Source: an uncultured Pseudomonadota bacterium (lineage in GTDB: Bacteria; Pseudomonadota; Gammaproteobacteria; Steroidobacterales; Steroidobacteraceae). From it: 32,926 nt of DNA. How positions within the stretch are numbered: the first letter of the stretch is position 1; each line of letters begins with the position of its first letter. The notes under the pieces are model-generated. The model did no database searches, was not told the origin of the DNA, and was given only the letters and a program-made list of their open reading frames with translations. Below, piece by piece: positions 8,672 through 32,926 of this stretch. The position numbers were made by a program, and so were the translations under genes. Location: contig CAIUGU010000146.1 of the NCBI GenBank assembly GCA_903898785.1, forward strand, positions 1-32,926, given 5' to 3'.

Positions 8672-8729
8672 CGAGTGGATCTACCTGTCAGAGAATGGGA
8701 AAGCGGCTGGCGGCGATGGTAAGGGCCCA

Positions 8730-8752: not shown

Positions 8753-8769
8753 CACCAGGATGCGAAGTA

Positions 8770-9720
8770 CTACCGAATCGGGCTTGGCACCAGGAAGTCC
8801 TGCGAGATGCGCTCGCCCAGGTCGGCCACCCGCGCGAGGAACTCGACCAGGTATTCGTGCAGGCCCATCTCGAGGATCGAGTCGATCCGGCCGAACAGCA
8901 GCGACGCGTGCATTTCGCCGGCGCGGCGCTCCGTCTCCGCCGACTGCGAGTTCGCGATGGCCTTCAGGTGCATGTACACCTGGCTCATGCAGCGATGCAT
9001 GGAGCGCGGCATGTCGTCGGTGAGGATGAGCAGCTCCGCCACGCGTCGCGGCGTGATGAGGTCGCGATACACCTTGCGGTAGATCGCGAACGCGGACACC
9101 GAGCGCAACAGCGCGCTCCACTGGTAGTAGTCGACGACGCCGCCCGCACCTTCGCCGCGCGGCAACAGCAGGTGATACTTCACGTCGAGGATGCGGGCGG
9201 TGTTGTCGGCACGCTCGAGGTACGTGCCGAGCCACGTGAAGTGATAGGCCTCGTCGCGCAGCATCGTGCCCTGGATGACGCCGCGCGTCAGGTGAGAGCG
9301 GTACTTCACCCATTCGAAGAAGTCGGCGATCTCGGCGCCGAGCGAGTACCGCGTGACTGCCTTGCGCATGTCGATCCACGTCGAGTTCAGCGTCTCCCAC
9401 GCTTCCGAGGTCAGCGTGCCGCGAACCGCGCGGGCGTTCTCGCGTGCCGCCGCAAGGCAACTGTAGATGCTGGACGGGTTGTCGCGATCGAACGCCATGA
9501 ACGCGAGCGCCTTGGCCGGCGTCACCGTGTCATGCTTCTTCTGGTAGGCCTCCATCAGGTCGCTGATGGACAGCGTGGCGATCCAGCTCTGCTCCATCAC
9601 GTCGCCGCCCTGCGGCAGCAGCGACATCTGGTAATTCACGTCGAGCATGCGCGCGATGTTCTCGGCACGCTCCGTGTAGCGCGCCATCCAGTAAAGGTGA
9701 TCGGCTGTTCTACTGAGCAT
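8770..9720 (-). CDS. Alpha-E domain protein of the Anbu cluster
   Basis: The product has 316 residues and is all-helical. It opens with the alpha-E signature MLSRTADHLYWMARYTERAENIARML. A repeat of the same pattern lies near residues 165-182 (WLGTYLERADNTARILD). It is found beside circularly permuted ATP-grasp enzymes and has been proposed on comparative grounds to work with them in peptide-bond or peptide-tag synthesis; no activity is established. Its ATG shares one base with the stop of the ATP-grasp gene (TGATG), so translation is coupled. Confidence 0.9.
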   Translation of the reverse strand: MLSRTADHLYWMARYTERAENIARMLDVNYQMSLLPQGGDVMEQSWIATLSISDLMEAYQKKHDTVTPAKALAFMAFDRDNPSSIYSCLAAARENARAVRGTLTSEAWETLNSTWIDMRKAVTRYSLGAEIADFFEWVKYRSHLTRGVIQGTMLRDEAYHFTWLGTYLERADNTARILDVKYHLLLPRGEGAGGVVDYYQWSALLRSVSAFAIYRKVYRDLITPRRVAELLILTDDMPRSMHRCMSQVYMHLKAIANSQSAETERRAGEMHASLLFGRIDSILEMGLHEYLVEFLARVADLGERISQDFLVPSPIR

Positions 9721-11138
9721 CAGCGCTCCAGGACCCAGGTATCTTTCGTGCCGCCGCCCTGGGACGAGTTCACGACCAGCGAGCCTTCACGCAACGCGAC
9801 GCGCGTGAGGCCTCCGGGCACCAGCGTGACCTCCTTTCCGGAGAGCACGAACGGCCGCAGGTCGATATGCCTGGGCGCGATACCCGATTCAACGAAGGTC
9901 GGACAGGCGGACAGTGCGAGCGTGGGTTGCGCGATGTACTTCGCAGGCTCCGCGATGATCCGTTCGCGGAACGTGGCGATCTGTTCCTTGCTGGCCGAGG
10001 GACCGATCAGCATGCCGTAGCCGCCCGCGCCATGGACTTCCTTGACGACGAGCTCGTGGAGATGCGCGAGCGTGTACTTGAGGTCTTCCTCCTTGCGGAG
10101 CATGTACGTGGGAACGTTGTTGAGCAGCGGCTCTTCGCTCAAATAGAAGCGGATCATGTCCGGCACGTACGGGTAGATGGACTTGTCGTCCGCCACGCCG
10201 GTGCCGATCGCGTTCGCGATCGTGACGTGTCCGGCGCGGTAGGCCGACAACAGCCCCGGCACGCCGAGCATGGAGTCCGGGCGGAACGCGAGCGGATCGA
10301 GGAAATCGTCGTCGATGCGGCGGTAGATGACGTCGACCCTCTTCGGGCCCCGCGTCGTGCGCATGTAGACGAAGCCGTCGTTGACGAACAGGTCCTGGCC
10401 CTCGACGAGTTCGACGCCCATCTGCTGCGCGAGGAATGCGTGTTCGAAGTAAGCGCTGTTGTACGAGCCCGGCGTCAGCACGACGACCGTGGGATCGTTG
10501 ACGCCCGCCGGCGGCACGCTGCGCAGGTTGTCGAGGAGCAGGTCCGGATAGTGCTCGACGGGCGCAATCGGATAATGGGCGAACAGCTCCGGGAACAGCC
10601 GCATCATCATGCGGCGGTCCTCGAGCATGTACGACACGCCGGAAGGCACCCGCAGGTTGTCTTCCAGCACGTAGAACTCGCCGGCGCCGGCACGCACGAT
10701 GTCGACGCCTGCGATGTGGGCGTAGATGCCGTTCGGGACGTCCACACCTTGCATCTCCGGGCGGTACTGGCTGTTCTGCAGCACCTGCTCGGCCGGGATG
10801 TGGCCGGCCTTCAGGATGTTCTGGTCGTGGTAGATGTCTTCGGTGAACGCATTGAGTGCGCGCACCCGCTGCTTGAGACCGGCCGCGAGCTTGCGCCATT
10901 CATCGGCCGGGATGATCCGCGGCACGACATCGAAGGGGATCAGGCGCTCGGACCCGGCGTCCTCACCGTAGACCGCAAAGGTGATGCCCACTCGATGGAA
11001 CAGCATGTCCGCTTCGGCCCGCTTCTGGGCAAGCCACTCGGTGGAAGTGGACGCCAGCCATTTGTCGAAGGCCTGGTAGTGGTTGCGGACGCCGCCTTCG
11101 GCGGCATGCATTTCGTTGTACGGGGTGGGGGCGGGCAT
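9720..11138 (-). CDS. Circularly permuted ATP-grasp (type 2) protein of the Anbu cluster
   Basis: The product has 472 residues. Family blocks are VLEDNLRVPSGVS (157-169), YNSAYFEHAFLA (226-237), RVDVIYRRIDDDFLDPLAF (267-285) and the Gly-rich nucleotide loop VKEVHGAGGYGM (365-376). The last part, TRVALREGSLVVNSSQGGGTKDTW, is also typical. ATP-grasp enzymes ligate a carboxylate to an amine or thiol through an acyl phosphate; the substrate of this subgroup is unknown. ATG 11138 is the first plausible start, with a weak ribosome site. It is the first gene of the Anbu operon, 167 bp after a small upstream gene. That gap contains a sigma-54-like promoter. Confidence 0.9.
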   Translation of the reverse strand: MPAPTPYNEMHAAEGGVRNHYQAFDKWLASTSTEWLAQKRAEADMLFHRVGITFAVYGEDAGSERLIPFDVVPRIIPADEWRKLAAGLKQRVRALNAFTEDIYHDQNILKAGHIPAEQVLQNSQYRPEMQGVDVPNGIYAHIAGVDIVRAGAGEFYVLEDNLRVPSGVSYMLEDRRMMMRLFPELFAHYPIAPVEHYPDLLLDNLRSVPPAGVNDPTVVVLTPGSYNSAYFEHAFLAQQMGVELVEGQDLFVNDGFVYMRTTRGPKRVDVIYRRIDDDFLDPLAFRPDSMLGVPGLLSAYRAGHVTIANAIGTGVADDKSIYPYVPDMIRFYLSEEPLLNNVPTYMLRKEEDLKYTLAHLHELVVKEVHGAGGYGMLIGPSASKEQIATFRERIIAEPAKYIAQPTLALSACPTFVESGIAPRHIDLRPFVLSGKEVTLVPGGLTRVALREGSLVVNSSQGGGTKDTWVLER

Positions 11139-19125: not shown

Positions 19126-20469
19126 GTGCAGCAACTTAGTCGATATCGCCTTCCCCTGGTGTGCGCAGCGTTGCTGGCCGTCACCGGGCAGTCCGTGGCG
19201 GCCGACGCCACCGATCGCGAAGCGCCGCTGCTCAAGTACGAAGCAAGCATCAAGGAAAGGCACTGGGAGGACGCGCTCGTCCCGGCACAGCAACTGGTCG
19301 ATCTCGCCAAGGCGAAGGAAGGCGAGCAGTCACTCGCCCTGGCAGACGCACTGATCCGGCTGGGCGGCGTCCAGTACCAGCTCAAGGACTACCCGAACGC
19401 GGAGGCGAGCTTCATCACGGCATTGAGGATCCGGGAGAAGCAGGGCGGCGCCCTGGCCCGCGGGCTGGAGGATCCCTTGAGCGGTCTCGGACTCACGCTT
19501 GCCGCCACCGATCGTCATGCCGAGGCCTCCCAGGTCCTCGAGCGCGCGCTGCTCGTCAGCCAGCGGCACAACGGCCTGTTCGACGTGAGTCAGAACGGGC
19601 TGCGGCTGCAGCTGGCCAGCAGCCTCATCGAATCGGGCCGCGGGCTCGAAGCGCACCAGCAGATGCAAAACCTCCTGCAGACGGCGGAAACGGCCTATGG
19701 CAAGAACGACCTGCGCTTCGCCGAGATCGCGGATGTGGGCGGGGACTGGTACTCGCGCTGGGGCTTCTTCGATATCGGCAGGAACCTGTACCGCACCGCC
19801 ATCAGGACCATCGAGACCAAGGCCGGTCCCAACGACCCCAGGCTGGTCAATCCGCTGCGCAGCCTCGGCCGCAGCTTCATCCGCGAACTGCTGTTCACGA
19901 ATGCGGGCCTGCTGAGGGCACCCGCGAACGGCGGCTTCCGGCTGTTGAGCCGTACCCGCCTGCCTCAGGAGGGCGAGGACGCGATGGTGCGGGCGGTACG
20001 CATCATGGAAGCGAACGACGCGCGCAATCCCACGGTGTTCCGCGTGGCCTTGATCGACTCGGGCGACTGGTACCTGCTCAAGAACGATCGCGACAAGGCG
20101 CTCGAATTCTATGGCAAGGCCCTGACGCTGCCCGCAGCCAGTACGACCGAAACGGCGCTGGTCGGCGACCCGCTCAGCTTTCCGGCAATGCTCGATTACG
20201 AACAGCCGCAGGTTGCGCTCCGATATATAGAGCGCGGCCGGGCACCGGAAAAGCTGATCGAGCGCAAGCTCACCATGGAGTTCACGGTATCGAGCACGGG
20301 CGCGGTCGTGGATCCGCGCATCATCGAGAGCGACGCGACCGAGAGGATGGAGCGGGAAACGCTGACGTCGATCCGCGAGGCGCTGTACCGGCCGCGTTTC
20401 GAGAACGGCGTGCCCGTCGACACACCGAACGTTCGTTACCAGCAGACCTTCAGGGACCTGAAGAACTGA
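19126..20469 (+). CDS. Exported TPR protein with TonB-C-like end
   Basis: The product has 447 residues with a GTG start. A signal peptide (YRLPLVCAALLAVTGQSVAA) ends near residue 26. Tetratricopeptide-like helices run from about 33 to 230: HWEDALVPAQQLVDLAKAKE, ALADALIRLGGVQYQLKDYPNAEASFITAL and the following pairs. Another helical pair near 310-335 precedes a small C-terminal alpha/beta unit (MEFTVSSTGAVVDPRIIESD, IREALYRPRFENGVPVDT). That unit matches the TonB C-terminal fold used to bind partner proteins. It is probably periplasmic or outer-membrane associated. It converges on the vWA/kinase cluster and overlaps its last gene by 20 bp. Confidence 0.8.
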   Translation: MQQLSRYRLPLVCAALLAVTGQSVAADATDREAPLLKYEASIKERHWEDALVPAQQLVDLAKAKEGEQSLALADALIRLGGVQYQLKDYPNAEASFITALRIREKQGGALARGLEDPLSGLGLTLAATDRHAEASQVLERALLVSQRHNGLFDVSQNGLRLQLASSLIESGRGLEAHQQMQNLLQTAETAYGKNDLRFAEIADVGGDWYSRWGFFDIGRNLYRTAIRTIETKAGPNDPRLVNPLRSLGRSFIRELLFTNAGLLRAPANGGFRLLSRTRLPQEGEDAMVRAVRIMEANDARNPTVFRVALIDSGDWYLLKNDRDKALEFYGKALTLPAASTTETALVGDPLSFPAMLDYEQPQVALRYIERGRAPEKLIERKLTMEFTVSSTGAVVDPRIIESDATERMERETLTSIREALYRPRFENGVPVDTPNVRYQQTFRDLKN

Positions 20470-21223
20470 TTGCCGGCCCGGGCGCAGCAGCGGCGTCCGA
20501 ACTCGTCGGCATGACTACCGACTCTTGTGAAGCCTGATTGCCACTTGCCGCCGATGCCGGATCTGCTGGCGCGACATCGGGAACAGGCGCCCCGCCCAAC
20601 ACGTCCGGCTTGGGGGCATCGGGCAGCAGGCCGCGGATGATCGCCTGCTCGCGGAACTCCACCACCAGCTTGGCGGCCGCATCGCGCATCGCAAGCGAGG
20701 TCGCGCGGGCCAGCGGTTTCTCTGCGCTCATGCCGGTGGCCGGCACGATGCCGTAGCCGGTAAAGGGCCAGGACTCCGCAAGGCGCCCGTCCGGCGTGTA
20801 GACGCTGACGCGGTACTTGATGCTGACCGCGTAGAACTGGGTACCGGCATCGCGTGGCGTGACGAAGGAGAAGTCCTCCACGGACGGCTCCAGGATCGCG
20901 CGGATGCCGGGCGCCGTCGTCGCGGCCGTCGCGATGTTGTCGATGGGCACCACATTCTCGAACATGGCGGCAAACAGGCGCGACACGCCCTCGCTCTGCG
21001 CAGGGCCCGTCGTGACTTCCCATTTGAAGCCGTAGCGGTCGCCCTTGTAGACATAACTCGAGAATTCGATCGGCATGAACAGGCCGACCGAAACGGGGAT
21101 CCTTGTGATGACAGGCTGAGGGATGTTCGGGCGCGCCTCGAGGCGCACGGTGCTGCAGCCGGAAAGCACTGCCCAGGCAGCGACCAGCGCAATCCACCCC
21201 CCTGTCTGCCAGCGACGCGTCAT
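20450..21223 (-). CDS. Lipoprotein, last gene of the kinase/vWA/ExbB cluster
   Basis: The product has 257 residues. The signal ends in lipobox VLSGC (C23), with Ser next, which favours outer-membrane sorting. The central domain (30-195) has alternating strands (ITRIPVSVGLFMPIEFSSYV, FYAVSIKYRVSVYTPDGRL) and a C-terminal helix (ARATSLAMRDAAAKLVVEF). That helix-after-strands pattern is common in envelope lipoproteins that self-assemble. The tail is low-complexity Pro/Ala/Ser. It lies 42 nt after the vWA gene on the same strand, so it is probably part of the machine. No named family is recognised. Confidence 0.75.
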   Translation of the reverse strand: MTRRWQTGGWIALVAAWAVLSGCSTVRLEARPNIPQPVITRIPVSVGLFMPIEFSSYVYKGDRYGFKWEVTTGPAQSEGVSRLFAAMFENVVPIDNIATAATTAPGIRAILEPSVEDFSFVTPRDAGTQFYAVSIKYRVSVYTPDGRLAESWPFTGYGIVPATGMSAEKPLARATSLAMRDAAAKLVVEFREQAIIRGLLPDAPKPDVLGGAPVPDVAPADPASAASGNQASQESVVMPTSSDAAAAPGPAISSSGP

Positions 21224-21265
21224 GTCGTTCTTGTTACTCCTTCGCGATCACCGATGCAACGCCCG

Positions 21266-22327
21266 CTATGTCGGCGACGCGCTTGCGGGTACCTTCTTCT
21301 CGGCTTGACCAATACGGACACCTCCCCGGCCGCGCGGTTCCTGCAGTCCGACAAAAGTCCCGCCGTTGCGCGCGCACAGGATCCTCATGAGCGTTGCAAA
21401 GCGGATGCTGGTGTACTGGGGAGCATCCGGCCGCACGGGAAAGCCGATGCCATGGATACGGACCAGTCGCTCGCCGGTCTGCCCCTCGCGATTGACGAGG
21501 TCGACGGTCTTCACGACGGAATCGATCGACGAACCGGTGAACTCGTCGCCGAACACGTAAAGGCTGATCTTCTTGTCCCTGGCCCAGTATGTCTGGATGG
21601 CCGACACGATGCCGCCCGCCGGGTTCGACGCCGAAAAGGCGTTCCAGCTGCGCAGCCGGTCGATCACGGTCTTGCGCTGCCCAGGGCTGTCCGGAATCCA
21701 CTTGCCGGCGTAGCTCGGGAACATCGGCGTGCCGACGTCGTTCATCACCTGGAAGCCCTTCAGCTTCGGGTAGATGTTCAGCGTCTCCTCGACCTTCTGG
21801 AGCATCGCGGGCCATGCGTAGTTGAACATGCTCCCCGAAGTATCGATCAGGAAGATGACGTATTCGCTATCGATGGGAATCCCGCCGATGGTGTCGTCCT
21901 CGGCCTTGCGCCGGAAGTTGCTGCCCAGCAACCGCTTCATTTCCTCGGTGAGCGTCTGCTGAGCCGAGACCAGTTGCCCCTCGATCTGGTTCGCGACTTC
22001 CGATTCCTGGCGGGAGGCCGAGTACCGCCCCTGGATGTCGCTCAGGTCACCGCGCAGACGCGCGATGCGGGCGCGCTCTTCTGCCAGTTGCTCGAGGCGC
22101 GTCGTCAGGTCCCTGTTCAGCACTTCGGTCTCGCCGCGAATCTTGTTGAGCTCCTGATCGAGCTTGATCACCGAGCCTTCGAGATCGGTGCGCGACTGCT
22201 CGAGCGCAATCGGCTCACCCACCTCGGTGAGGACCAGCAGCAGGATCACTGCCCCGAATCCGCAGCAGATGCAGTCGAGGAACGACAGGCTGAAGACCTC
22301 GGTATCGCGGCGCTGGCGGACTCTCAT
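21266..22327 (-). CDS. Membrane-anchored vWA protein 1 (TolR/MotB-like N-terminus)
   Basis: The product has 353 residues. One N-terminal membrane helix (about 14-35) is preceded by FSLSFLD. Asp18 sits at the helix start as in TolR, ExbD and MotB. A coiled coil follows (about 43-138, SRTDLEGSVIKLDQELNKI onward). A vWA domain from about 155 has the MIDAS start LIDTSGSM (D162, S164, S166). The expected Thr of the metal site is not evident (NPAGGIVSAIQ), so metal binding may be weaker than in its neighbour. FGDEFTG follows near 260. ATG 22327 overlaps the previous stop as ATGA; an upstream TTG is less likely. Its companion channel is encoded 2.5 kb upstream in the same operon. Confidence 0.85.
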   Translation of the reverse strand: MRVRQRRDTEVFSLSFLDCICCGFGAVILLLVLTEVGEPIALEQSRTDLEGSVIKLDQELNKIRGETEVLNRDLTTRLEQLAEERARIARLRGDLSDIQGRYSASRQESEVANQIEGQLVSAQQTLTEEMKRLLGSNFRRKAEDDTIGGIPIDSEYVIFLIDTSGSMFNYAWPAMLQKVEETLNIYPKLKGFQVMNDVGTPMFPSYAGKWIPDSPGQRKTVIDRLRSWNAFSASNPAGGIVSAIQTYWARDKKISLYVFGDEFTGSSIDSVVKTVDLVNREGQTGERLVRIHGIGFPVRPDAPQYTSIRFATLMRILCARNGGTFVGLQEPRGRGGVRIGQAEKKVPASASPT

Positions 22328-23418
22328 GGCCAATCCTTTGCGGGACTGAGGAAGGAGCCGCCCGTGTTGCGCGACGCAACCCAGTAGGCGGCGGGTGCGG
22401 AAGGGTCGCCTTCCATCGGCAGCAGGATGACGTTGAGCGGCGTGTCACGCGGGTACCGTGCCATGGCGCGCTCGAACAGCTTGAGTCGCGCCTCGCCGTC
22501 GACCGTCTTCGCGAGCAACGGCGCGGATACCCCTTGAGTTGGCAATCCGTCGGTGACGAGGATGACGTTATCCGGTCGCGGGTTCATCGCCATGAGTGCG
22601 GCAAAGGCGTTCTCGAGACTGGTTCCTTCCTTCGGCACCCGCTGTCGCAGGGCCGTCGTGGCCTTGTTGAGTGCTTCGGGATCGCTGCCGTCGAGCCACT
22701 TGCCCCCGCTGCCTTCGACGAGGGGCTCGGCGGTCGTGTTGAACGCATAGACCTGGAACTTCGACGTCGGCGGCATCTGCGCCAGCAGCCAGTCCACGGT
22801 GCCGACTGCCCGCTGCCATTTCTCGGACAACAGCTTGCGCGAGTCGGCCATGTTCCGCATCCGCAAGACGTTGACCACGGTTTCATCGAGCATGCTGGCC
22901 GAAACGTCGATGAGGATGAAAATCCTCTCGCCCCCGACGCGGAGCCCGGTGAGATACTGGCGATCGCCCTGTCCCGTGAAGCCACGAACCCGATTGCCGG
23001 GTGCGCCCGGACTCTGTGCGCCCCCCTCCAGGCGGCGTGTCCCTTCCTCGAGCGCCTTGAGGTCCGCCTTCAGTCTCTCGATGGCCTCGCGGCGCGACAG
23101 CGTGGTGCCTTCCGCATCGGCCAGCTGGACCTTGAGCTTCTCGCTTTCCTCCTGGATCCGCTCGGCCAGCCCTTCGGTGCGGACCGCTTCGTCGGTCGTC
23201 TCCTGCACGGAATTCCTGATCACCGTGAGGTTGGCGTAGCCTTCGAGCACTTCTTCCTCGAGGCGATCGACCTCGGCCTGCATGTCCACGTTGGTCTTCT
23301 CGCGTTGCACGCCTGCCTGGGCCGCGATCAGCGTATAGAAGAGCACCACGGCGCCGAACCCGCAGCAGATGACGTCGAGGAACGACATGCTGAAGACTTC
23401 AGTCTTGCGGCGTGCCAT
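22324..23418 (-). CDS. Membrane-anchored vWA protein 2 (TolR/MotB-like N-terminus, complete MIDAS)
   Basis: The product has 364 residues with the same layout as vWA protein 1. The N-terminus is KTEVFSMSFLDVICCGFGAV with Asp15 at the start of helix 12-33. A coiled coil runs about 40-135, then a short Gly/Pro hinge. The vWA domain spans 165-350 with all three MIDAS loops: DVSAS (171-175), GTSLENA (Thr266) and LVTDGLP (Asp290). By topology the vWA part should be periplasmic. The N-terminal 30 residues are nearly the same in the two vWA proteins, so they probably share a docking site. It overlaps the FHA gene by 20 bp and vWA gene 1 by 4 bp. Confidence 0.88.
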   Translation of the reverse strand: MARRKTEVFSMSFLDVICCGFGAVVLFYTLIAAQAGVQREKTNVDMQAEVDRLEEEVLEGYANLTVIRNSVQETTDEAVRTEGLAERIQEESEKLKVQLADAEGTTLSRREAIERLKADLKALEEGTRRLEGGAQSPGAPGNRVRGFTGQGDRQYLTGLRVGGERIFILIDVSASMLDETVVNVLRMRNMADSRKLLSEKWQRAVGTVDWLLAQMPPTSKFQVYAFNTTAEPLVEGSGGKWLDGSDPEALNKATTALRQRVPKEGTSLENAFAALMAMNPRPDNVILVTDGLPTQGVSAPLLAKTVDGEARLKLFERAMARYPRDTPLNVILLPMEGDPSAPAAYWVASRNTGGSFLSPAKDWP

Positions 23419-24799
23419 CGTCGTTCACCAGCTGGATGAGGTCGAGGGTCACTCCGGGAGAGCCCAGGCGCAGGCGATCGCCTACGGTGAGCACCGCGCG
23501 TCCGTTCACGCGTTCATCGTTGACGAAGGAACCGTAGGTACTGTGATCCTCCAGCAGCACGCTGCCGTTCTGCCGCCGCACCGAACAATGACTGCGCGAA
23601 ACACCGGGCGACGACGGCACCGACACCGAACGGCCTGCTTCCACGGACCACCCGAGCGTCAAGGGCCGATCAGTGATCGGCCAGGCGCGGCCACGGAACA
23701 GCAGGTGCGTCGGGCGCAAGTGCGGGGGCGTAGCCGTGTCGTTGCTTGCATCCGGTGAGGGTTCGGGCGCAGCCACAGCCAGCGGCAGTCGATAGACGAG
23801 CGTGATGCCGTCGGCCGCCTGCCTGATGGAGCCGGCATGCGACAGCGCACCCAGCGCCGCTGCCCCACGCGGCAGAACACGCACCCGGCAATCGCGCAGG
23901 GCGGTGAATCTCTCACCAAGGCCGGGCAAGTCCTTGAGCCGATGGGCGAGTTGGAGATCCACGGTAACGCCCGCTGGACGCGCGCCCTGAACGAGTCGCA
24001 GGATTTCGTCGTACTGGGACTGGACGGCAGCGACCCATTCCTCCCGCGCCAATTCGATGGAATAGACGGCCTGTCCGAACTCGATTTCCGCCGTCACCGA
24101 CTCCTGGTCGGCAAGACTCGCCAGCCAGCCGGGCAAGCGATCGACCAGCTGCTGCTCGGTAGCCGCCTGCAGGAGAGGATCGAAGCGGGTCCGTCGCACG
24201 AATGTGCCGGCGATCTGGTACAGCCACGCCTGCTGGAAGGCCAGCCAGCCATGGCGCGGCAGGATCTCGAAGCGGCTGCGCCTGAATCCCGCGCTGTCTG
24301 TCTCCAGCACGCTGAGCACCGCCTGGTGGAGTTGCAGGTCGAGGTGCAACACTCGCGGGCCGACGGGTTCGAGTGCGGAAGCCAGCAGCGCGCTGTCGGC
24401 CAGCCCAAGCATGGGGACGCGCGTTTCGTTGACGATGCCGAGCAGCAGTCCGAGCTGCGTGCGTGAGTACCCCGGCGGCACGGCGAGCAGCAGACCCGTC
24501 ATGTCGGCGCGCACGGGTTCGATGATCTGCGTGAGCTGCTCGAACGCGAGATCCGCTGCGGAAAGCACGCGTCCCGCCGCCATGCGCGGCAGCGCTTCGG
24601 TTCCGAGGTTGCGCCAGAAGTCGTTCTGCACGCCAAGCGGTTGCAACCGCGACTGACGCGCGGCCGCCTCGCCCGTGAGCACGCCAGCCGGGCCGGGCAA
24701 CGCAACGCCAGGGTGCTCGCTCACGAACTCGCCCGTCTCCCCGCCCGCGCGGGCAAGGACGAGGCCTGCATCGTTGAGTTCAAGCGCGAAGTGGCTCAT
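23399..24799 (-). CDS. Actin/Hsp70-like domain fused to FHA domain
   Basis: The product has 466 residues, with no signal peptide or membrane helix. Residues 1-330 look like a divergent actin/Hsp70-fold ATPase: FALELNDAGLVLAR (phosphate-1-like), LLLAVPPGYSRTQLGLLLGIVNETRVPMLGLADSALLAS, HLDLQLHQAVLSVL (phosphate-2-like) and a late GAAALGAL. Several catalytic positions differ from DnaK, so it may be a pseudo-ATPase. Residues 365-460 are an FHA domain (LTLGWSVEAG, VSRSHCSVRR, LEDHSTYGSFVND), which binds phosphothreonine. A kinase in the same operon is the obvious source of its ligand. It begins 23 nt after the channel gene. Confidence 0.8.
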   Translation of the reverse strand: MSHFALELNDAGLVLARAGGETGEFVSEHPGVALPGPAGVLTGEAAARQSRLQPLGVQNDFWRNLGTEALPRMAAGRVLSAADLAFEQLTQIIEPVRADMTGLLLAVPPGYSRTQLGLLLGIVNETRVPMLGLADSALLASALEPVGPRVLHLDLQLHQAVLSVLETDSAGFRRSRFEILPRHGWLAFQQAWLYQIAGTFVRRTRFDPLLQAATEQQLVDRLPGWLASLADQESVTAEIEFGQAVYSIELAREEWVAAVQSQYDEILRLVQGARPAGVTVDLQLAHRLKDLPGLGERFTALRDCRVRVLPRGAAALGALSHAGSIRQAADGITLVYRLPLAVAAPEPSPDASNDTATPPHLRPTHLLFRGRAWPITDRPLTLGWSVEAGRSVSVPSSPGVSRSHCSVRRQNGSVLLEDHSTYGSFVNDERVNGRAVLTVGDRLRLGSPGVTLDLIQLVNDDGTPQD

Positions 24800-24822
24800 G
24801 ACTGTCGATCGTTCGGTAAAGC

Positions 24823-25629
24823 CTACCGGGTCTGCAGGTGCCGGATCACGTACTGGTCCAGGTACGTTTCGGTCTCCTGCACGAGGCGCTCCTGTGAAAG
24901 CTGGAGCTGGTGCAACAGGAACATGAGCACGATGCTGATGAGCAACGCCACGAGCGTGGAGTTGAAGGCGACACCCAGGCCCTCTGTCACGCCGGCGATA
25001 TCGCCGGTGACTGCCTTGTGTGCCTGCGCCAGCGCATCGCCGATGCCGCGGACCGTGCCGATGAAGCCGATCGCCGGAATGGCCCAGGCAATGTACCGCA
25101 CCATCGACAGCTCGGAGTCGAGCCGGTCGGCTTCAGACTGGCAGACGCCGCGCGCCGCATCGGACACGTCCTGCACATTGCGGGTTGCACCGAACCGCGA
25201 CAACGCGGACAGCACGGCACGTGGCAGCAACATGCGCCGCGTGTCGGCGGGCATGGCCTCGACCTGCCGCGAATACTCGCGGGTATCTTCAGGCAGGATG
25301 CGCATGCCTTCAGGCACGTGCACCAGGTCCGTGTTGAGCAGTTGCCACTCGCGACGCGTTTCCCAGCCCTTGTACGCCATGATCGCAAAAGCCCAGAGCA
25401 TCAGGATGAAGCAGGCCTCCTGCTCGTAGTCCTTGAGGATGATGTAGAGCGAGCGCTCCGGCACGTACTCCGGATTGGTGCGCATCTGCTCCGCCTGTTG
25501 GGTCAGCAGCGCGGCCGCCTTCGGCCTGACACTGGTGACGTAGATCCCGTGCACGACGATCACCGCCAGGATCAGCGCGAACAGGTCGAAGACGAATTCG
25601 CTGGGCATCATTCTTTTCTGGGTAGCCAT
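24823..25629 (-). CDS. MotA/TolQ/ExbB-type proton channel protein
   Basis: The product has 268 residues. TM1 is near 12-34 and a second helix near 72-86. A cytoplasmic helical domain (90-175) follows, then the two channel helices: YIAWAIPAIGFIGTVRGIGDAL (179-200) and VTEGLGVAFNSTLVALLISIVLMFLL (214-239). The GFIGTVRGI and VAFNSTLVALL motifs are those of TolQ and ExbB pore helices. Such proteins form pentamers around two TolR/ExbD/MotB helices and convert proton flow to motion. No separate ExbD gene is present; the two vWA proteins carry the matching Asp helix. The large N-terminal cytoplasmic insertion is longer than in ExbB. Confidence 0.92.
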   Translation of the reverse strand: MATQKRMMPSEFVFDLFALILAVIVVHGIYVTSVRPKAAALLTQQAEQMRTNPEYVPERSLYIILKDYEQEACFILMLWAFAIMAYKGWETRREWQLLNTDLVHVPEGMRILPEDTREYSRQVEAMPADTRRMLLPRAVLSALSRFGATRNVQDVSDAARGVCQSEADRLDSELSMVRYIAWAIPAIGFIGTVRGIGDALAQAHKAVTGDIAGVTEGLGVAFNSTLVALLISIVLMFLLHQLQLSQERLVQETETYLDQYVIRHLQTR

Positions 25630-25641
25630 CTCTAGACCTGG

Positions 25642-25950
25642 TCAGATGTCGATTGGAAACGAAACGTCGAAATCGGCGCGCACTTCTTCGCTCGGCACGA
25701 AGCGCTGCGACGACGGGGCGCGTGCCGGAGGAGACGGAGTGGCAGTCGCGGCAGGCGTGCTCGCCGACGGTGTTGCTGCAGTTGGCGAGGGCGTTGCGGC
25801 AGGCACAGCCGCCGGCTTGGCCGGCTCCGTCTTCGCGGGCGCAGGGCTCGCGGGGGCGGCAGGCGGTGTCGCCGGGGCCGCGGCCAGCGCGGCGAGCGCT
25901 GCAAGCGACGCAACAGTCGCCAGGGCTGCTCTCAGGTGTCGTGCGTTCAT
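25642..25950 (-). CDS. Small exported Pro/Ala-rich protein with distinct C-terminal tail
   Basis: The product has 102 residues. A signal peptide (ARHLRAALATVASLAALAAL) is followed by about 50 residues of Ala/Pro/Thr/Ser linker. A non-repetitive acidic tail follows (QRFVPSEEVRADFDVSFPID). The tail is the only part with normal composition and is the likely functional peptide, for example a docking segment held at the end of a flexible tether. ATG 25950 has GGAG 8 nt upstream, inside the end of the preceding gene. It lies 12 nt before the channel gene. No family name is known to me. Confidence 0.7.
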   Translation of the reverse strand: MNARHLRAALATVASLAALAALAAAPATPPAAPASPAPAKTEPAKPAAVPAATPSPTAATPSASTPAATATPSPPARAPSSQRFVPSEEVRADFDVSFPIDI

Positions 25951-25955
25951 CAGGA

Positions 25956-28364
25956 TCACTCCGCGTAGCGGGCCAGCCGGAAGCCGAGATCGGTGCGGGT
26001 CACGGCCCCGAAGTCGCGGGCCGTCAGCCGCAGGTCCGTGACACCGGATTGACGCCAGCTCGACCCGCGGATCACGCGCTGGCCGGCCTCACCGTTGCTC
26101 AGGGGATCGACGGCAACCTGGCTTGCGTCTGCGGTCACAGTGTAGAGGTCCTGCGTCCACTCGGCGACATTGCCGCCCATGTCGAACAGGCCGAGCGCAT
26201 TCGGGGGGAAGGAACCCACCGGCGCCGTGGCGGGATAGCCGTCGTCGTAGTCGGGGATGACATCCTGGACGACGATGCGCGCGGAGTAATCCGCGTAATT
26301 GCCGGACCGCGCCGCGACGGGCAAAGCCTCGCCCCATGGATACCGGCGCGTGGCCGTACCGCGCTCGTAGCGGGCTGCCCATTCCCATTCGGCTTCGGTG
26401 GGCAGGCGATAGCCGGTCGTCGCCGGCACGATCGGCACCAGCGCACCGTTCTTCGTTTCGTACGCGACAGGCAGGCCTTCCTGCTCGGACAGCCAGTTGC
26501 AGAACGCCGCGGCCTGCTGCCAGCCGATGTTGACCGCCGGCTGCCGGTCGAGGTCGAGCGAGTGGGCGGCAACAAAGCCGGAGCGGTGTTCCGCGCGGAA
26601 CTGTCGGTACTCGGCGTTCGTCACTTCGCGGGTACCGAGATAGAACCGCCGCTTGAGCTCCACTTCCCGCTGAGCCTCGTTGGCGCGACGACCGGGTTCC
26701 CGGCGCGAACTGCCCATCACGAACTTGCCCGCGGGCATCAGCCTGAGTTCGCCTGCTTTCGAGTTGATCACGGCGGGAATCGCCGCCACCTTTGCTTCCT
26801 CTGCGGTCAGCAGCGTGACGTTCACGGCCTGCGTGAGGCCGGGCCTTGGCGTGACCGACACCTTGTGCGTCACGAGCCCGGGCTTGCGGATCTCGATGTC
26901 GTGCGTCGTCGCCGTCAGCCGCAGCTTCTGGTTGGCATTGCCCCGCGGCGCACCGTCCACGAACAGCTGCGCGTCGGCGGGTTGGGCGGACACGGTCAGT
27001 TCACCGTAGATGCCGGTCAGTTCCAGTTCGACGACCTGCCGGGCACCGGGACCTACGCTGACGCTGCGCTCTGCCGGTTCGTAACCCGGCTTGGCGAGGA
27101 CGATGGCCTGCGAGAGATCGGGACGGACCGGCAACTCGAGCGGTGTCTGGCCGCGGTAGGCACCGCCGACGGTCACGCTCGCGCCGGCCGGGTTGCTGCG
27201 GATCACGAGGCGGCCGTCAGGCAGGCCGAGGCGCACAGGACCGACGGTCTGGGCCTGGTTGGCGACGACGTTGAGGTCCGTGGCCCAGGGAGTGAAGCCC
27301 TTGAGTCGCAATTCGAGCGGCTGGCTGCCTTCGTCGATGTCCGTCTCGAGCGGCGTGACGCCCCGAAGCTCACCAGCCACATACAGTTCCGCGCCCGCCG
27401 GCTCGGAGATCACGTTGACTTTCGCCCACGCAGGAACGAGCTCCGGTGCCAGCGATTGCTTGACGCCGGCGCCTTCCACGTCAAGCTCGGTGGTGAAGGC
27501 ACGATAGCGGGGCGCCGCCAGCGAGACGGTTCGCTTTCCCGGAGCCACTTCGAAAACGCCAGGCGCGGAACCGACTTCCTTGCCGTCGATGCTGACGGTG
27601 GCGGCGACGGGAACCTCGATGCTGAGCATGCCCGGCAACTTCTCCAGCGTGATGTCGACACGCTGGTTCGCTTCCTCGGTCACTTCCACGGTCTGCGTCA
27701 ACGGCTTGTAGCCGGCCCGCTCGACCTGCAGTTCGTATTGGCCGGGCCGTACGAGGAACTGCGACCCCAATCCGAACGCGGGCAGGCCGCCGTTCAGTGC
27801 GATGCGATCTGCGCCGGTCGCCACCGTGACCGTGAGCGAGACGGATGTGAAGACGAACCAGATCGCGACCGCGAAGAGCGCCGCCACCACCGGGATGATG
27901 ACGCGGCGTGGCTGGAAGCCGGGGGCGCGCGCGACGGCTGCGCCGGGCGTTCGGAAGTGGATCGGTTCGATGCGTTCTTCGTCGGCTACGGTGCCGCCGG
28001 AGACGCGCTGGCCGGGGTCGATGACAGGCGGCGCCGTGATGTTGCCGACACTGCCATCCTCGACGGTCAGGACCAGGCGCCCGTCGCGACTCCCGAGCTG
28101 CAAGCGGGCCGCGCCGATCGTCACGACGTCGCCCGGCTTCAGCCACACGGAACTGCGCGCGGGCAGGCCGTTGTGCTGCAGATCCGCGCCTTCTGTCGGC
28201 TGCAGGAACAGCGCTTCCTCATGCAGCCCACACCACGCCGCCGGCCCGTCGAAACCGCCGGCCAGGACGATGCTGGAGCCGGCGCCTCCCAGGCTCAGCG
28301 GAAATTCCTGCGCGGTGAAGGTCCGTTCGCCCAGCGCATCGCTCAATGTCAGCGTGAAACTCAA
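25956..28364 (-). CDS. Membrane protein: FHA-like N-terminus, five PEGA-like modules, FGE-like C-terminus
   Basis: The product has 802 residues. Residues 1-102 resemble a degenerate FHA (LSLGGAGSSIVL, LQHNGLPA, LKPGDVVTIGAARLQLG). The membrane helix is at 154-173. Outside the membrane, PEGA-like beta modules repeat near 175, 246, 314, 384 and 453; clear examples are VISEPAGAELYVAGELRGVTPLE and IRSNPAGASVTVGGAYRGQTPLE. Residues 535-800 are a formylglycine-generating-enzyme-like (SUMF1/EgtB/PvdO) domain: GYRLPTEAEWEWAAR, YPWGE, GLFDMGGNVAEWTQDLY, RVIRGSSW and GFRLAR. The catalytic Cys pair of true FGE is not seen near RLTARDFGAVTRTDLG, so it probably binds rather than catalyses. The start is TTG at 28364, overlapping the kinase stop. 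Confidence 0.88.
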   Translation of the reverse strand: MSFTLTLSDALGERTFTAQEFPLSLGGAGSSIVLAGGFDGPAAWCGLHEEALFLQPTEGADLQHNGLPARSSVWLKPGDVVTIGAARLQLGSRDGRLVLTVEDGSVGNITAPPVIDPGQRVSGGTVADEERIEPIHFRTPGAAVARAPGFQPRRVIIPVVAALFAVAIWFVFTSVSLTVTVATGADRIALNGGLPAFGLGSQFLVRPGQYELQVERAGYKPLTQTVEVTEEANQRVDITLEKLPGMLSIEVPVAATVSIDGKEVGSAPGVFEVAPGKRTVSLAAPRYRAFTTELDVEGAGVKQSLAPELVPAWAKVNVISEPAGAELYVAGELRGVTPLETDIDEGSQPLELRLKGFTPWATDLNVVANQAQTVGPVRLGLPDGRLVIRSNPAGASVTVGGAYRGQTPLELPVRPDLSQAIVLAKPGYEPAERSVSVGPGARQVVELELTGIYGELTVSAQPADAQLFVDGAPRGNANQKLRLTATTHDIEIRKPGLVTHKVSVTPRPGLTQAVNVTLLTAEEAKVAAIPAVINSKAGELRLMPAGKFVMGSSRREPGRRANEAQREVELKRRFYLGTREVTNAEYRQFRAEHRSGFVAAHSLDLDRQPAVNIGWQQAAAFCNWLSEQEGLPVAYETKNGALVPIVPATTGYRLPTEAEWEWAARYERGTATRRYPWGEALPVAARSGNYADYSARIVVQDVIPDYDDGYPATAPVGSFPPNALGLFDMGGNVAEWTQDLYTVTADASQVAVDPLSNGEAGQRVIRGSSWRQSGVTDLRLTARDFGAVTRTDLGFRLARYAE

Positions 28365-30697
28365 ATCCTGTCCTCGCAGCGAATGACGACCGGGGCTGGC
28401 GCAGCGCCCGGTACGACGGTGATTTCACGGCGTACGTCGCGGAAACCCGGCCGCGTGCCGACGACGGTGTACTTGCCCGGGGTCAGCTCGACGGCTTTGC
28501 GAGTGAACGGCCCGAGATCGCCGACACGATAGATGGTCACCTGGGTCAGGTTGTCGGACTCGAGTGCCACTTGCACGGGGACCGACACCCGTTTCAGCCA
28601 CTCGTCGAGCGTTGCGATCTGCTTGGCAAGGACGGGTCCCGCAGGGGTCACGGCCTTGGCGCGGTTGAGCGTGACGGTGGCCGAGTCGCGCACCGGGGCG
28701 CTGAACAGCCGCTCGGGCTGGGTGACATAGAGCTGCAGCTCGTCGTTCAAGGTGGCGCGAGGGCCGGTGCGCTCGGCGCCCTGCTGGGCTGCGGCTACCG
28801 TCGCATCCAGCGTAAGGACGGCCTGATAGTCTGCGAGCGCCTGTTGCCACCGCTCCGCCGCCTCGTGGGTGCGGGCGCTGGCCAGGCGGAGCGCGATCGT
28901 CGCGGTGCGCTCTTCCTGCTCCAATTGCTGCAGGGCCTGCTGCACTTCTGGTGCCTTGGGCCTCATGCTGCCGGCCTTCTCAAAAGCCTTCCGGGCGCCG
29001 GGATAGTCCTTGGCAGTCATCGCCGTGAAACCGCCAGCCATTGCAGCGGCGAAGGCATCCCCCGCCAGCCGGGCCTGCAGGCGGGCCACGCCTTCCGTCG
29101 CACGCCGGGTGTCCGGGTCCAGTTTTGCTGCACGCCCAAAGGCGTCTGCGGCGGCGGTCAGGCGGCCTTCCTTCTCGTCCGTGTCCGCTTGCCTGAGGAG
29201 CGCCATGACCGCATCAAGCGACTGGGCGCGACGCAGCCCCCGAGTGGCTTCCGCCTGACCGGGCGCGAGCTTCAACGCCAACTCATAGGCTTCTTGTGCA
29301 GCAATTGCGCTGCCGGAATCGAGCGCTGCAAGTCCTCTCGCCAGCGCTTCCTTCAGGACTTCGGTGGCACGCGCTTCAAGGTCCGAGACCGATTTTGCTG
29401 CACCCTCGTAGCCGCCGATTGCTGCAGCATAATCCCGGGTGGCATAGCTCGCGGCCGCTGCCGAGATCCCTGCCTGCAGCGCAGCCCAGGGCTCCGTAGC
29501 CCATTGATCTATGGCCCTTTCCTTCAAGGCATCGACCCGTGGAGTCAAGGTTGCGAGCAGGTCATCTGCCTGCTGTTTCAGCACCGCAAGCGCCTCGAGC
29601 TCGGCGGGCGTCAGTGCCTTGTCCACGACCTCGGGGGTGGGCGGGGGAGCGACCGCCACCACCGGCGGAGGAGCAGCGACGCGATCAGGCAGCACGAAGA
29701 AGACCACGCCAGCTGCAGCAATCAGCAGCACCAGGGCCGCGGCAGTGAGTCCCTTGCGGAACCCCTCTTTGCGGAGTTCCGCCGGCGTCGGTCCGGCGTT
29801 CGCAGTCGAAGTCCGTTGCCACTTCGCCTGCAAAGGGGCTTCGACGACGGGGGGATTGAGCACGGGGGCTGCGACCGGCCTCGGACCGGCCATGCGGTTG
29901 CGCTCCGCTTCGAGGGCTTTTCTCAGCTCGGCGGCAATGGCTGGCATCGAGGGCCGTTGGGCGGGGTCCTTCTCCAGGCAGCGATGGACCAGCGTGGTGA
30001 CTTCGCCTGAGACCGGATAGCGGGACGAGAGCTGTGGAACAGCCTGCCCTTCGACCTTGGCGGCATCGATGTCGGGATAGAAGGGCGGGTAACCGGACAG
30101 CAATTCGTAGAGGAGCACGCCGAAGGCGTAGACGTCGTCCGCCAGCTGGGCCGGTGCGCCGCGCCACTGCTGCGGACTCATGCTGTAGGGCGACCCTGCT
30201 CCCAGGGCCGGATCCGGCGACTGCTCGAGGGCGAGAGCCAAGCCGAAATCGGCCAGCCGCGGGCTCCCGTCGATCGACATCAGCACGTTCGTGGCCTTCA
30301 CGTCCCGGTGGACGATGCCGGTGGAATGGGCATGTGCCAGTGCGTCGGCGACGGGGATGGCCGCATGCAGCACTTCGTAGGCGGGCCGCCCACGGAACTG
30401 GGTGAGGTCGCCGCCGGCGAGATACTCCATCGCAATCCAGGCTTGGCCTGCCTCGCGATGGAAGCCATCGACCCGAACGATATCGGGATGGACCAGCGAC
30501 TTGAGGCGCTCGCATTCGAGCGCCAGCGCGTCGAGCAGCGCGGGATTGCCTGCCACCCGATCGGAAAGCAGCTTGAGCGCAACGTGCCCACCGAGCTCGC
30601 GGTCTTCGGCAAGCCAGACTTCTCCCAGGGCGCTCTGGCCGAGGGGACGAACCAAGACAAATCTTGCAGACAGCGCGTGCCCGCTCTTCATGATCAT
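28361..30697 (-). CDS. Transmembrane Ser/Thr protein kinase with TPR and PEGA-like C-terminal part
   Basis: The product has 778 residues. The kinase domain (10-265) is intact: glycine loop LGQSALGEV (19-27), K42 (VALKLL), E61, catalytic HRDVKATN (130-137), DFG (150-152) and APE-equivalent SPQQW (174-178). It is a Hanks-type (PknB-like) kinase. The linker is Pro-rich; the membrane helix is near 316-337. The outside part has TPR-like helices (about 365-650) and an end piece TIYRVGDLGPFTRKAVELTPGKYTVVGTRPGFRDVRREI (split pattern, 721-760) that matches PEGA. It overlaps the FGE-like gene by 4 nt. Targets are probably the FHA proteins of the same operon or their partners (inference). Confidence 0.93.
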   Translation of the reverse strand: MIMKSGHALSARFVLVRPLGQSALGEVWLAEDRELGGHVALKLLSDRVAGNPALLDALALECERLKSLVHPDIVRVDGFHREAGQAWIAMEYLAGGDLTQFRGRPAYEVLHAAIPVADALAHAHSTGIVHRDVKATNVLMSIDGSPRLADFGLALALEQSPDPALGAGSPYSMSPQQWRGAPAQLADDVYAFGVLLYELLSGYPPFYPDIDAAKVEGQAVPQLSSRYPVSGEVTTLVHRCLEKDPAQRPSMPAIAAELRKALEAERNRMAGPRPVAAPVLNPPVVEAPLQAKWQRTSTANAGPTPAELRKEGFRKGLTAAALVLLIAAAGVVFFVLPDRVAAPPPVVAVAPPPTPEVVDKALTPAELEALAVLKQQADDLLATLTPRVDALKERAIDQWATEPWAALQAGISAAAASYATRDYAAAIGGYEGAAKSVSDLEARATEVLKEALARGLAALDSGSAIAAQEAYELALKLAPGQAEATRGLRRAQSLDAVMALLRQADTDEKEGRLTAAADAFGRAAKLDPDTRRATEGVARLQARLAGDAFAAAMAGGFTAMTAKDYPGARKAFEKAGSMRPKAPEVQQALQQLEQEERTATIALRLASARTHEAAERWQQALADYQAVLTLDATVAAAQQGAERTGPRATLNDELQLYVTQPERLFSAPVRDSATVTLNRAKAVTPAGPVLAKQIATLDEWLKRVSVPVQVALESDNLTQVTIYRVGDLGPFTRKAVELTPGKYTVVGTRPGFRDVRREITVVPGAAPAPVVIRCEDRI

Positions 30698-30768
30698 GGG
30701 ATGCCCTGAGAAACCGACCGCACCGACAGCCGACGCAACCTCCGACTCATCCTGCAGGAGTCGACGCT

Positions 30769-32040
30769 TCAGCGACGCGCGGCACTACCTTCGCTGCCCT
30801 GGCCGGCCACTGCATCGGGAACCGCAACCGGCATGCCGGTTTCGTTCTCGTACAGTTCCTTCAGCAGACGCCGCCATTCGTGGAATTGTTCTTCGGCGGT
30901 CCCCGTCAGCTGCAACGTCCGGCCCTCCACCTCGACGACCATTGGCTGCACTTCGGCCTGGAATGACTGGCCGAGCTGCTTCAGCGAATCCGAGTGCATC
31001 TTGGCTTCCGCCGCCTTGTCGAACCCGCTCTTCACGGCGTACACGCCGCCGATGATGCCTGCGGTTGCGGCGGCACTGCCGACATAGGTTTCCGAATTGG
31101 CGCCCGCGACGACACCGGCGATGATGGCCGCGGCCCCCAGCAGCTTGCGGTTCATTGCCGAGCGCCTTGCGGCGGTTTCCTGCTCGATCTCGTCGTAACT
31201 GTAGCGACGCCAGTTCTGGTAAGGCTCCGCCACGTTGTCGCTGAACAGCGCGTAGTGTTCGTTCAGCGTATCGACGAACGCGTAGTCGCGCTCGCGGATG
31301 AGCTGGATGCGAGCCGGCAGCGGGTCGTCTTCGGCAGGCAAGCGCTGCACCTGGTAGACGCCCTTCTTGTCCTGCTTGAGATAGTCCTTGAAGGCGTAGG
31401 GCGCAAGATCGGATGCGAAACGCAGGTCCGATATGCGACGGATGCTTTCGAGGTCGTTCGCGGCCAGCTTCTGGCGGGCGGCCAGCATGTCGTTGGCGAC
31501 CTCGCTGTAGAGATTCTGGAACGGATCGCGGGGCCGGCCGCTAGTATCGCGATACGACCGCGTATCCGCGGGGGCTTGGTATACCTTGGTGAACCACGTG
31601 CGCCCCGACGCATCACGCACGGCGAGTTCGAGCTTCAGCGTCATGCCGTTCGACTCGAGGATCTTCCCCGAGACCATGACGTCGAGCGAATTCTCTTCCA
31701 TCGGCACGACGCGCACCTGGCCCCAGTGGCCCGTGCCTTCGAGCGTGCTGCGCAAACGCATCGGCATGTACCGCGACTCCGCCTTGCGCACGTCCGGGAA
31801 GATGCTCGCTTCCTCCTGGACCTTCTCGTCCTCGGGCACGTTCGGATCAAGCAGCTGCACTCCCACGTCGAGGAGCTGCTCCGAGGCGATTTCGGTCGTG
31901 GCCTGGACGGCGTTGACGCGCTGAACGGGCCGCGTTTCGACGACACACGCGCTCAAGCCGAAGAGCGCGAGGGTTGCCAGCGCCATCCTCATGGAGGGCG
32001 CAGTCATCCGTCGGTGCTCCCGTGCCGTCGCATTCGTCAT
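30769..32040 (-). CDS. Lipoprotein with glycine-zipper segment
   Basis: The product has 423 residues. The lipobox is LSAC at Cys32 counted from ATG 32040, or Cys21 from an internal ATG at 32007 that has a GGAG site and gives a shorter, more usual signal peptide. Either start is possible; the longer one is 1 nt after the upstream stop. Residues 85-200 are strand-rich (GTGHWGQVRVVPMEENSLDVMVSGKIL, LKLELAVRDASGRTWF) and resemble lipoproteins that modulate assembly. A glycine/alanine zipper (LLGAAAIIAGVVAGANSETYVGSAAATAGIIGG, split pattern near 305-335) suggests membrane or pore packing. It begins the visible operon with the Gly-rich gene. Confidence 0.8.
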   Translation of the reverse strand: MTNATAREHRRMTAPSMRMALATLALFGLSACVVETRPVQRVNAVQATTEIASEQLLDVGVQLLDPNVPEDEKVQEEASIFPDVRKAESRYMPMRLRSTLEGTGHWGQVRVVPMEENSLDVMVSGKILESNGMTLKLELAVRDASGRTWFTKVYQAPADTRSYRDTSGRPRDPFQNLYSEVANDMLAARQKLAANDLESIRRISDLRFASDLAPYAFKDYLKQDKKGVYQVQRLPAEDDPLPARIQLIRERDYAFVDTLNEHYALFSDNVAEPYQNWRRYSYDEIEQETAARRSAMNRKLLGAAAIIAGVVAGANSETYVGSAAATAGIIGGVYAVKSGFDKAAEAKMHSDSLKQLGQSFQAEVQPMVVEVEGRTLQLTGTAEEQFHEWRRLLKELYENETGMPVAVPDAVAGQGSEGSAARR

Positions 32041-32041
32041 G

Positions 32042-32926
32042 TCAGCCGCCCTTCTTGTAGTTGCGGTATTCCTGCCAGAGCTTGTCGCGGAGTTCGGGAT
32101 CGGTTTCCTTCATCGCGGCCTCACGCAGCTGGCGTGCGACGATGTCGTCGTCGCTGCCGTCCGGAATGCCGGCAGGTACCGTGTTCGGTCCCGAACCGCC
32201 GCCCTTGCCGCCACCGCCTACGCCGCCACCACCACCCTGCCGACTGCCGCCCTGCGACTCGGAGCCCTGGCCACCCGGAACGCCGCCGTTCTGCTCGCCC
32301 GATCCTTCGGCGTCGCCGTTGCCGTTATCGCCTTGGCCATTGCCGTTGCCCTGAGCCGCGCCGGCGCCTTGCTCGGAACCGGCGCCGCCTGCGCCGGCCG
32401 GATCGGCGCCACCTGCACCGGAACCGCTGCCGCGAGACTGGGCCAGCACCGCCTGCTCCTTGCGCAGGTGACCGTCGAAAACGCGGAAGGTTTCTTCGAT
32501 GCGGCGATTGATGTCGGCGCGCTGCTCGTCTGCAGTCATCGGGCCGCTGCCTGCGCCGCCGGTGCCCGAGGCGGCGCCAGCAGGACGCCCGGCAGTGCCG
32601 CCTGTCCCGCCGCCCGGATTCCCCGCCGAGCCTGCCGACCCGCTGTCGTTGCCAACGCCACCGGCACCGCCTGCCGATGCCGCGCCGCCCGCCGCGGAGT
32701 CGCCGCCCGCGCCACCTTGTCCGCCCGGCTGGCCGGATCGGGATTGTGCAGTGGCCCCGCCCGCACCCGACGGACCGCCTGCTGCGCCGACGGCACCGCC
32801 ACCCGCAGTCGACGCGACGGTCCCAGCGCCACCCGCTCCGCCTTGACCGCCGGGTTGGCCGCCTTGCTGTCCTGAAGATTCGCCGACGCCGCTCCCTTGG
32901 GAGCCGCCCGTGGCGGCAGCCGACCC
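32042..32926 (-). CDS. Gly-rich low-complexity protein, 5' end outside window
   Basis: The minus-strand frame is open from the window end to the stop at 32042, giving 294 visible residues and no stop. An ATG at 32539 could be mistaken for the start, but the frame continues upstream as Gly/Ala/Ser/Gln-rich sequence (GGQGGAGGAG, AGGVGNDSGSAG). Downstream of it lies a normal helix, MTADEQRADINRRIEETFRV. A second Gly-rich stretch follows and then the closing helical piece DDDIVARQLREAAMKETDPE to YRNYKKGG. The layout (two helical docking segments on flexible Gly-rich tethers) suggests a scaffold or filament. No signal peptide can be seen because the start is missing. It is 1 nt before the lipoprotein gene, so it is first in the visible operon. 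Confidence 0.75.
   Translation of the reverse strand, partial: GSAAATGGSQGSGVGESSGQQGGQPGGQGGAGGAGTVASTAGGGAVGAAGGPSGAGGATAQSRSGQPGGQGGAGGDSAAGGAASAGGAGGVGNDSGSAGSAGNPGGGTGGTAGRPAGAASGTGGAGSGPMTADEQRADINRRIEETFRVFDGHLRKEQAVLAQSRGSGSGAGGADPAGAGGAGSEQGAGAAQGNGNGQGDNGNGDAEGSGEQNGGVPGGQGSESQGGSRQGGGGGVGGGGKGGGSGPNTVPAGIPDGSDDDIVARQLREAAMKETDPELRDKLWQEYRNYKKGG

Follow-up and report, generated by a model that had tools for sequence, protein, structure and literature searches.

A widespread operon of a TolQ-type channel, two vWA proteins and an optional kinase-FHA module probably encodes a proton-driven trans-envelope machine

The window analysed here, a stretch of 32,926 nucleotides that represents one whole contig out of the 286 of a 78% complete draft genome, carries an operon of ten genes which, in our opinion, probably encodes a proton-driven, Tol-like machine that spans the cell envelope and is equipped with an optional phospho-control. 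A literature search for the full gene set, whose reach ended short of preprints and most subscription papers, found no description of it. While the motor core has a precedent (see below), what appears to be new is the complete set of parts, a kinase-FHA module that can be separated from the rest, the C-terminal peptide of a small exported protein and the persistence of the machine in genomes that lack Tol-Pal.

Gene content of the operon

All ten minus-strand genes were confirmed by a reading-frame check of the window, with intergenic gaps of -20 to +71 nt, which bears out their description in an earlier note as joined genes. The most upstream one, gly (32042..32926), encodes a Gly-rich exported protein and, since the contig is identical with the window, is truncated at its 5' end. 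The Gly-rich protein that had been listed is hence present but incomplete, and in relatives most copies begin like lipoproteins and share the conserved C-terminal segment DDDIVARQLREAAxxETDPELRxKLWxEYRxYKK.

The neighbouring gene lip1 (30769..32040, minus strand) encodes a lipoprotein with the lipobox LSAC, in which a first domain (residues ~49-198) is followed by a long helical hairpin (~240-363), as derived from an AlphaFold2 model (pLDDT 84.6), VIA-align comparison and the sequence profile. From the structural similarity of this first domain to FlgT (Z 12.4), PelC (11.0), TolB (10.7) and CsgG (10.3), it is assigned to the FlgT/PelC/CsgG/TolB-N fold class; a PDB profile search with lip1 gave nothing significant. 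Matches of lip1 to the tripartite alpha-pore toxins AhlB and SmhB were set aside, as they lie in the helical hairpin and are of a kind that long helices often produce. The earlier note had counted two lipoproteins, and lip1 indeed belongs to the core. The last gene of the operon, lip2 (20450..21223, minus strand), represents an accessory lipoprotein that is sometimes divergent and that, upon locus comparison, is a neighbour only in the family of the window and in some other lineages.

The product of kin (28361..30697, minus strand) combines a cytosolic Hanks kinase (residues ~1-275; 132 bits in Pfam) with a transmembrane helix (317-335) and a periplasmic part with TPR and PEGA-like stretches, of which the kinase domain is optional in relatives according to Pfam and profiles. 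It is followed by fge (25956..28364, minus strand), which had been described as an FHA-PEGA-FGE-like protein. Pfam supports PEGA (five stretches) and FGE with 166 and 164 bits, and a transmembrane helix is located at ~150-183. The N-terminus, however, is FHA-like in layout only: a recognisable phosphothreonine pocket is absent and Pfam finds no FHA domain there. In addition, none of 35 aligned sequences has a Cys in the C-terminal segment which, from known FGE, we take to be the place of the catalytic Cys pair.

Between fge and exb, a small exported protein (25642..25959, minus strand) is encoded that, outside of its tail, matches no Pfam family. For the tail we found the following. In 109 of 112 loci the protein ends in the pattern FxPSExIxADxxVxFPxDI directly before the stop codon, the copy of the window being the 19 residues FVPSEEVRADFDVSFPIDI; shuffled controls showed the terminal pattern in only 3 of 2240 cases, and the longer tail motif occurs nowhere else within the loci. 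A C-terminus that is free and nearly invariant suggests a docking peptide, and its Asp could conceivably occupy the MIDAS of a vWA domain.

The act gene (23399..24799, minus strand) had been annotated as actin-like with an FHA domain. The C-terminal FHA domain proved real (47.6 bits in Pfam), while residues 1-328 are more exactly described as an Hsp70/DnaK nucleotide-binding fold, given that the model (pLDDT 93) superimposes on DnaK (2v7y) over 328 residues with a Z of 32.0 and an rmsd of 2.9. By eye, the alignment contains ELNDAGL and DLQLHQAV in place of the glycine-rich phosphate loops DLGTT and DLGGGT, and due to this apparent degeneration a role in binding seems more likely than chaperone activity.

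The features of lip1 and fge bear on the main rival explanation, namely that the motor serves motility, export or assembly at the surface in the style of AglRQS-Glt or of GldLM/GldK in type 9 secretion, the vWA arms moving a complex that spans the envelope and acts on a surface polymer or an adhesin. FlgT, PelC and CsgG are ring-forming outer-membrane proteins, and the FGE domain has GldK as its best NCBIfam match (137.6 bits), which stays below the GldK cut-off of 350. In type 9 secretion, an FGE-like GldK likewise works alongside a 5:2 proton motor; its GldM arms are long Ig-like dimers and the system is found in Bacteroidota. The AglRQS-Glt gliding machinery of Myxococcus also shares parts, as it comprises one TolQ-type and two TolR-type arm proteins, an FHA protein, TPR proteins and lipoproteins (PMC3169522), but its arms are of the TolR/ExbD and not of the vWA type and its genes are scattered over several clusters. 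Against such a surface motor speaks that the neighbours listed for ten loci include no conserved gene for an outer-membrane barrel, a polymer synthase or an adhesin, and that the operon persists in genomes of 1.1-1.6 Mb. From our point of view this explanation is an unlikely one, even if it deserves to be kept in mind.

The motor core

The Tol-like reading that we favour is centred on exb, vwa1 and vwa2. exb (24823..25629, minus strand) encodes a channel subunit of the MotA/TolQ/ExbB type that passes the curated MotA_ExbB cut-off (56.0 versus 22.9 bits) and in which T192 and T225 are invariant among 37 sequences; both align with the two pore threonines of the TolQ protein of the same genome. 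vWA1 (22324..23418) and vWA2 (21266..22333), also on the minus strand, share a common layout with one transmembrane helix, a coiled coil and a periplasmic vWA domain. Inside the TolR-like helix, which bears the motif FLDxxxCGFGA, D15 of vWA1 (38 sequences) and D20 of vWA2 (36 sequences) are invariant, and so are the DxSxS residues of the MIDAS in the same alignments. The vWA domain scores 31.5 bits in vWA1 and weakly (13.8 bits) in vWA2, although the MIDAS motif of the latter is intact. Pfam finds no match to the TolR/ExbD arm domain (PF02472) in either protein, and PDB profile searches yielded only coiled coils for vWA1 and nothing at E 0.001 for exb.

TolR-like vWA proteins that occur as heterologous pairs next to tolQ-like genes, with no tolR present, have been reported as widespread in Proteobacteria and without assigned function; their TolR-like helix bears a proton-binding Asp, and the pairs were modelled within a TolQ-like pentamer (PMC12204202; Mol Biol Evol 2025, msaf138). 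With these TPH-vWA motor pairs the window has the heterologous vWA pair, the Asp helix, the tolQ-like neighbour and the lack of tolR in common, and going by their description we assume both to be the same family (PMC12204202). Since a paired-vWA motor was thus predicted in 2025, the motor core is prior art as a prediction, and the statement of the earlier note that no named system of this composition was known is not supported in this form. The parts of that publication drawn on here are silent on a kinase, FHA, Hsp70-like, PEGA, FGE, TolB-N-like lipoprotein, Gly-rich and small proteins, as well as on a kinase-FHA coupling and a link to Tol-Pal loss (PMC12204202).

Conservation and inheritance

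It had been set beforehand that the cluster would count as a chance neighbourhood if its channel and vWA genes were not co-conserved with the kinase and FHA genes. The cluster survived this check: homologues of vWA1 are present in 155 of 196 genomes sampled from the order of the window (112 of 145 among those of good quality), and since the cluster as a whole is syntenic at more than 100 loci, a chance neighbourhood is rejected. Among 44 fully read loci and 60 further ones, nearly all that are complete share the arrangement gly-lip1-kin-fge-small-exb-act-vwa1-vwa2, be they from the order of the window, from other gammaproteobacterial families or from one other class of Pseudomonadota. The combination of a TolQ/ExbB-type channel with two vWA arms, a kinase and an FHA protein in one operon, as originally proposed, is therefore supported by conserved synteny, and the idea of a motor by the invariant Asp and Thr residues. 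Exceptions are one genus-level group with vwa2 elsewhere in the genome and the smallest genomes, which are devoid of act; one genome (G080) has no lip1, and neither a kin nor a gly match lies beside its operon. An apparent loss in Peristeroidobacter soli, where a locus (L006) consists of vwa1-vwa2 only, was dismissed, as the full operon resides on another contig and L006 represents a second, lone pair.

Beyond the order, vWA2 was found in 28 of 322 genomes of a class sample, a few of which are from the order itself, and in 13 of 348 genomes of a phylum sample; a family of another class (f207) carries it together with the same neighbour genes. Many genomes of the window's own family are without the operon. 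Of 14 families in a tree built from exb, vWA1 and vWA2, 12 form single clades, and judged by these clades the operon looks vertically inherited. Searches with the operon gave no plasmid matches and no relatives on viral contigs, for which reason a mobile or phage element was rejected.

These data also weigh on the idea of an anti-phage or competitor-sensing system resembling Zorya, in which the motor would sense and the kinase would signal. exb matches ZorA, albeit weakly (21.7 bits) and as the only Zorya model with any match, and the kinase has matches among many defence kinases, which would hold for most Hanks kinases. The vertical-looking inheritance, the near-universal presence across the order, the retention in streamlined genomes, the lack of plasmid and viral-contig matches and the absence of an effector gene all run counter to a defence role, which we regard as very improbable.

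The kinase-FHA module

Profiles for the kinase domain and the periplasmic part of kin and for the Hsp70-like and FHA domains of act were built and run against all loci; kinases in which the K is read as R (L153, L195) were excluded as ambiguous. Wherever the kinase is intact (KDD triad; 76 loci), 5 or all 6 of the FHA pocket residues are present without exception, whereas 28 of the 34 loci without an intact kinase have lost the FHA pocket or act altogether. On the motor tree, the kinase state switches about 10 times, and kinase and FHA pocket were lost about 8-10 times while the rest was retained. Among 8 independent pairs, the strict pocket (6 of 6) tracks the kinase in about 6.4 and never shows the opposite (median p 0.031); the looser pocket (5 of 6), which was tried first, does so in 4.3 of 8 pairs, again never in the opposite direction (p 0.06-0.125). 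The phylogenetically independent support for a kinase-FHA link is hence modest.

In several kinase-less loci the pocket SRHC is changed to SQHC or SQYC while the Hsp70-like domain scores nearly as in kinase-bearing relatives, and several of these altered pockets look like decay after the loss of the kinase. Overall, this sequence evidence would indicate that kinase and FHA domain act together on the machine and that the machine works without both; some lineages never show either and still keep the core. The canonical FHA Arg, which usually touches the phosphate, is absent in most FHA domains of act, so that the binding mode may differ.

The earlier note had interpreted the cluster as a rebuilt type VI phosphorylation module, and descent from the type VI secretion threonine-phosphorylation pathway (PpkA, TagR-like, Fha), be it as a relic or as a derivative, could at first sight explain the co-occurrence of kinase, FGE-like and FHA proteins, parts that both systems have in common. 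Here, however, the kinase is not central but, like the FHA pocket, dispensable, and it is not fused to a vWA domain in this operon. The sheath gene (TssC/VipB) is missing from all 17 carrier genomes searched, with E. coli as positive control, in agreement with the initial proposal that no secretion core is involved. Given that lineages never showing kinase or FHA pocket keep the core, this independence largely refutes a type VI origin, and we find it hardly credible.

Relation to Tol-Pal

The machine resembles Tol-Pal in its TolQ-type channel with both pore threonines, the TolR-like Asp helix, the TolB-N-type outer-membrane lipoprotein and, in some loci, an OmpA-domain gene, which in 8 loci lies directly downstream of vwa2 in the same orientation. 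It differs in having no TolB propeller and no TolA and in replacing the TolR domain by vWA heads; neither a TolB beta-propeller nor Pal was found among the ten operon genes with Pfam and NCBIfam. Most carriers possess both systems, and in the genome of the window a tolQ-tolR-tolA-tolB-pal cluster is present on a separate contig (C141).

The exception is a family with streamlined genomes of 1.1-1.6 Mb (f13), in which all 10 sampled genomes lack TolB, Pal and the adjoining tolQ-type gene and keep the vWA genes. The loci of this family that were read retain lip1, the periplasmic part of kin, fge, exb, vwa1 and vwa2; the 8 loci with the OmpA-domain gene belong to other families. From the listed completeness values, the probability of ten joint absences by draft incompleteness alone is estimated at <1e-7, and TolB is retained in other genomes of small size from the order. 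As the family is one clade, the loss of Tol-Pal counts as one evolutionary event, and since carriers outside of it retain Tol-Pal, the function of the machine is not simply that of Tol-Pal.

A bolder version of our reading would be that the operon encodes a second, independent outer-membrane coupling machine able to replace Tol-Pal, in which two proton-driven MIDAS heads capture and release the C-terminal peptide of the small periplasmic protein and in which, in one large order, kinase and FHA domain gate the motor. Taken as a whole, we offer this version only tentatively and consider it doubtful.

Discussion

How could such a Tol-like machine operate? The exb subunits would form the inner-membrane channel, in which vWA1 and vWA2 may be seated as a TolR-like pair, each contributing one proton-binding Asp, so that proton flow would move the pair. 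Their coiled coils would carry the two MIDAS-type vWA heads across the periplasm, where these could grip or pull partners encoded by the operon, namely the outer-membrane lipoprotein lip1 and the PEGA/FGE and TPR/PEGA scaffolds, and possibly also the C-terminal peptide of the small protein. In the order of the window, the membrane kinase would phosphorylate a partner that is read by the FHA domain of the Hsp70-like act protein, by which the machine could be switched on or off. The likely job would be to maintain the coupling between the outer membrane and the remaining envelope, side by side with Tol-Pal in general and without it in one lineage. The stoichiometry, the movement, the binding partners, the direction of the phospho-control and the function are what we infer in this scheme.

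Proton-driven envelope motors with a known job are few, comprising the Tol, Ton, flagellar, gliding, type 9 and Zorya systems. The present operon would represent a widespread and apparently vertically inherited motor for which the complete inventory of parts, the regulatory add-on and naturally reduced forms are legible from genomes. The co-loss of kinase and FHA pocket provides a clean test case for the phospho-control of such a motor, and the genomes that are devoid of TolB, Pal and TolQ yet possess the machine may offer a direct route to what the outer membrane needs from the proton gradient.

Variants of the operon

At eight loci (L072, L073, L154, L158 and L186-L189) the kinase is not fused but encoded by a separate gene, directly upstream of a gene for the TM-TPR-PEGA part, and in family f98 (L130, L145) the gene of the TolQ/ExbB-type channel, exb, lies downstream of vwa2, whereas it usually lies upstream of act. 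In family f12 (L061-L063) the operon is interrupted by an insertion of several kb that separates fge from exb; vwa2 is found elsewhere in the genome, with two copies in some genomes. Peristeroidobacter soli carries, distant from its full operon, a second, lone vwa1-vwa2 pair (L006, 10001-12123), which is a natural duplicate with no channel gene of its own nearby.

Neighbouring genes

A third, unnamed lipoprotein family with the motif CMTAxxEE...SVVLLAKPH, for which Pfam returned zero matches, repeatedly adjoins the operon (about 12 loci; e.g., at approximately -12129 in L044, -10423 in L047 and -11700 in L037, relative to vwa1). Convergent to the operon, the window encodes at 19126-20469 (+) an exported TPR protein that ends in a TonB_C domain (28.7 bits against a cut-off of 24.6) and has no obvious membrane helix; this gene accompanies the operon in several lineages. 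Further away, at 7919-11138 (-), lies a run of genes whose putative products are a peptidase of the proteasome type, an alpha-E protein and an ATP-grasp protein.

Tol-Pal in a streamlined family

Throughout one streamlined family (G013, G027, G039, G061, G069, G076, G081, G087, G093 and G098), TolQ, TolB and Pal have apparently been lost, and such an apparent family-wide loss is unusual in its own right.
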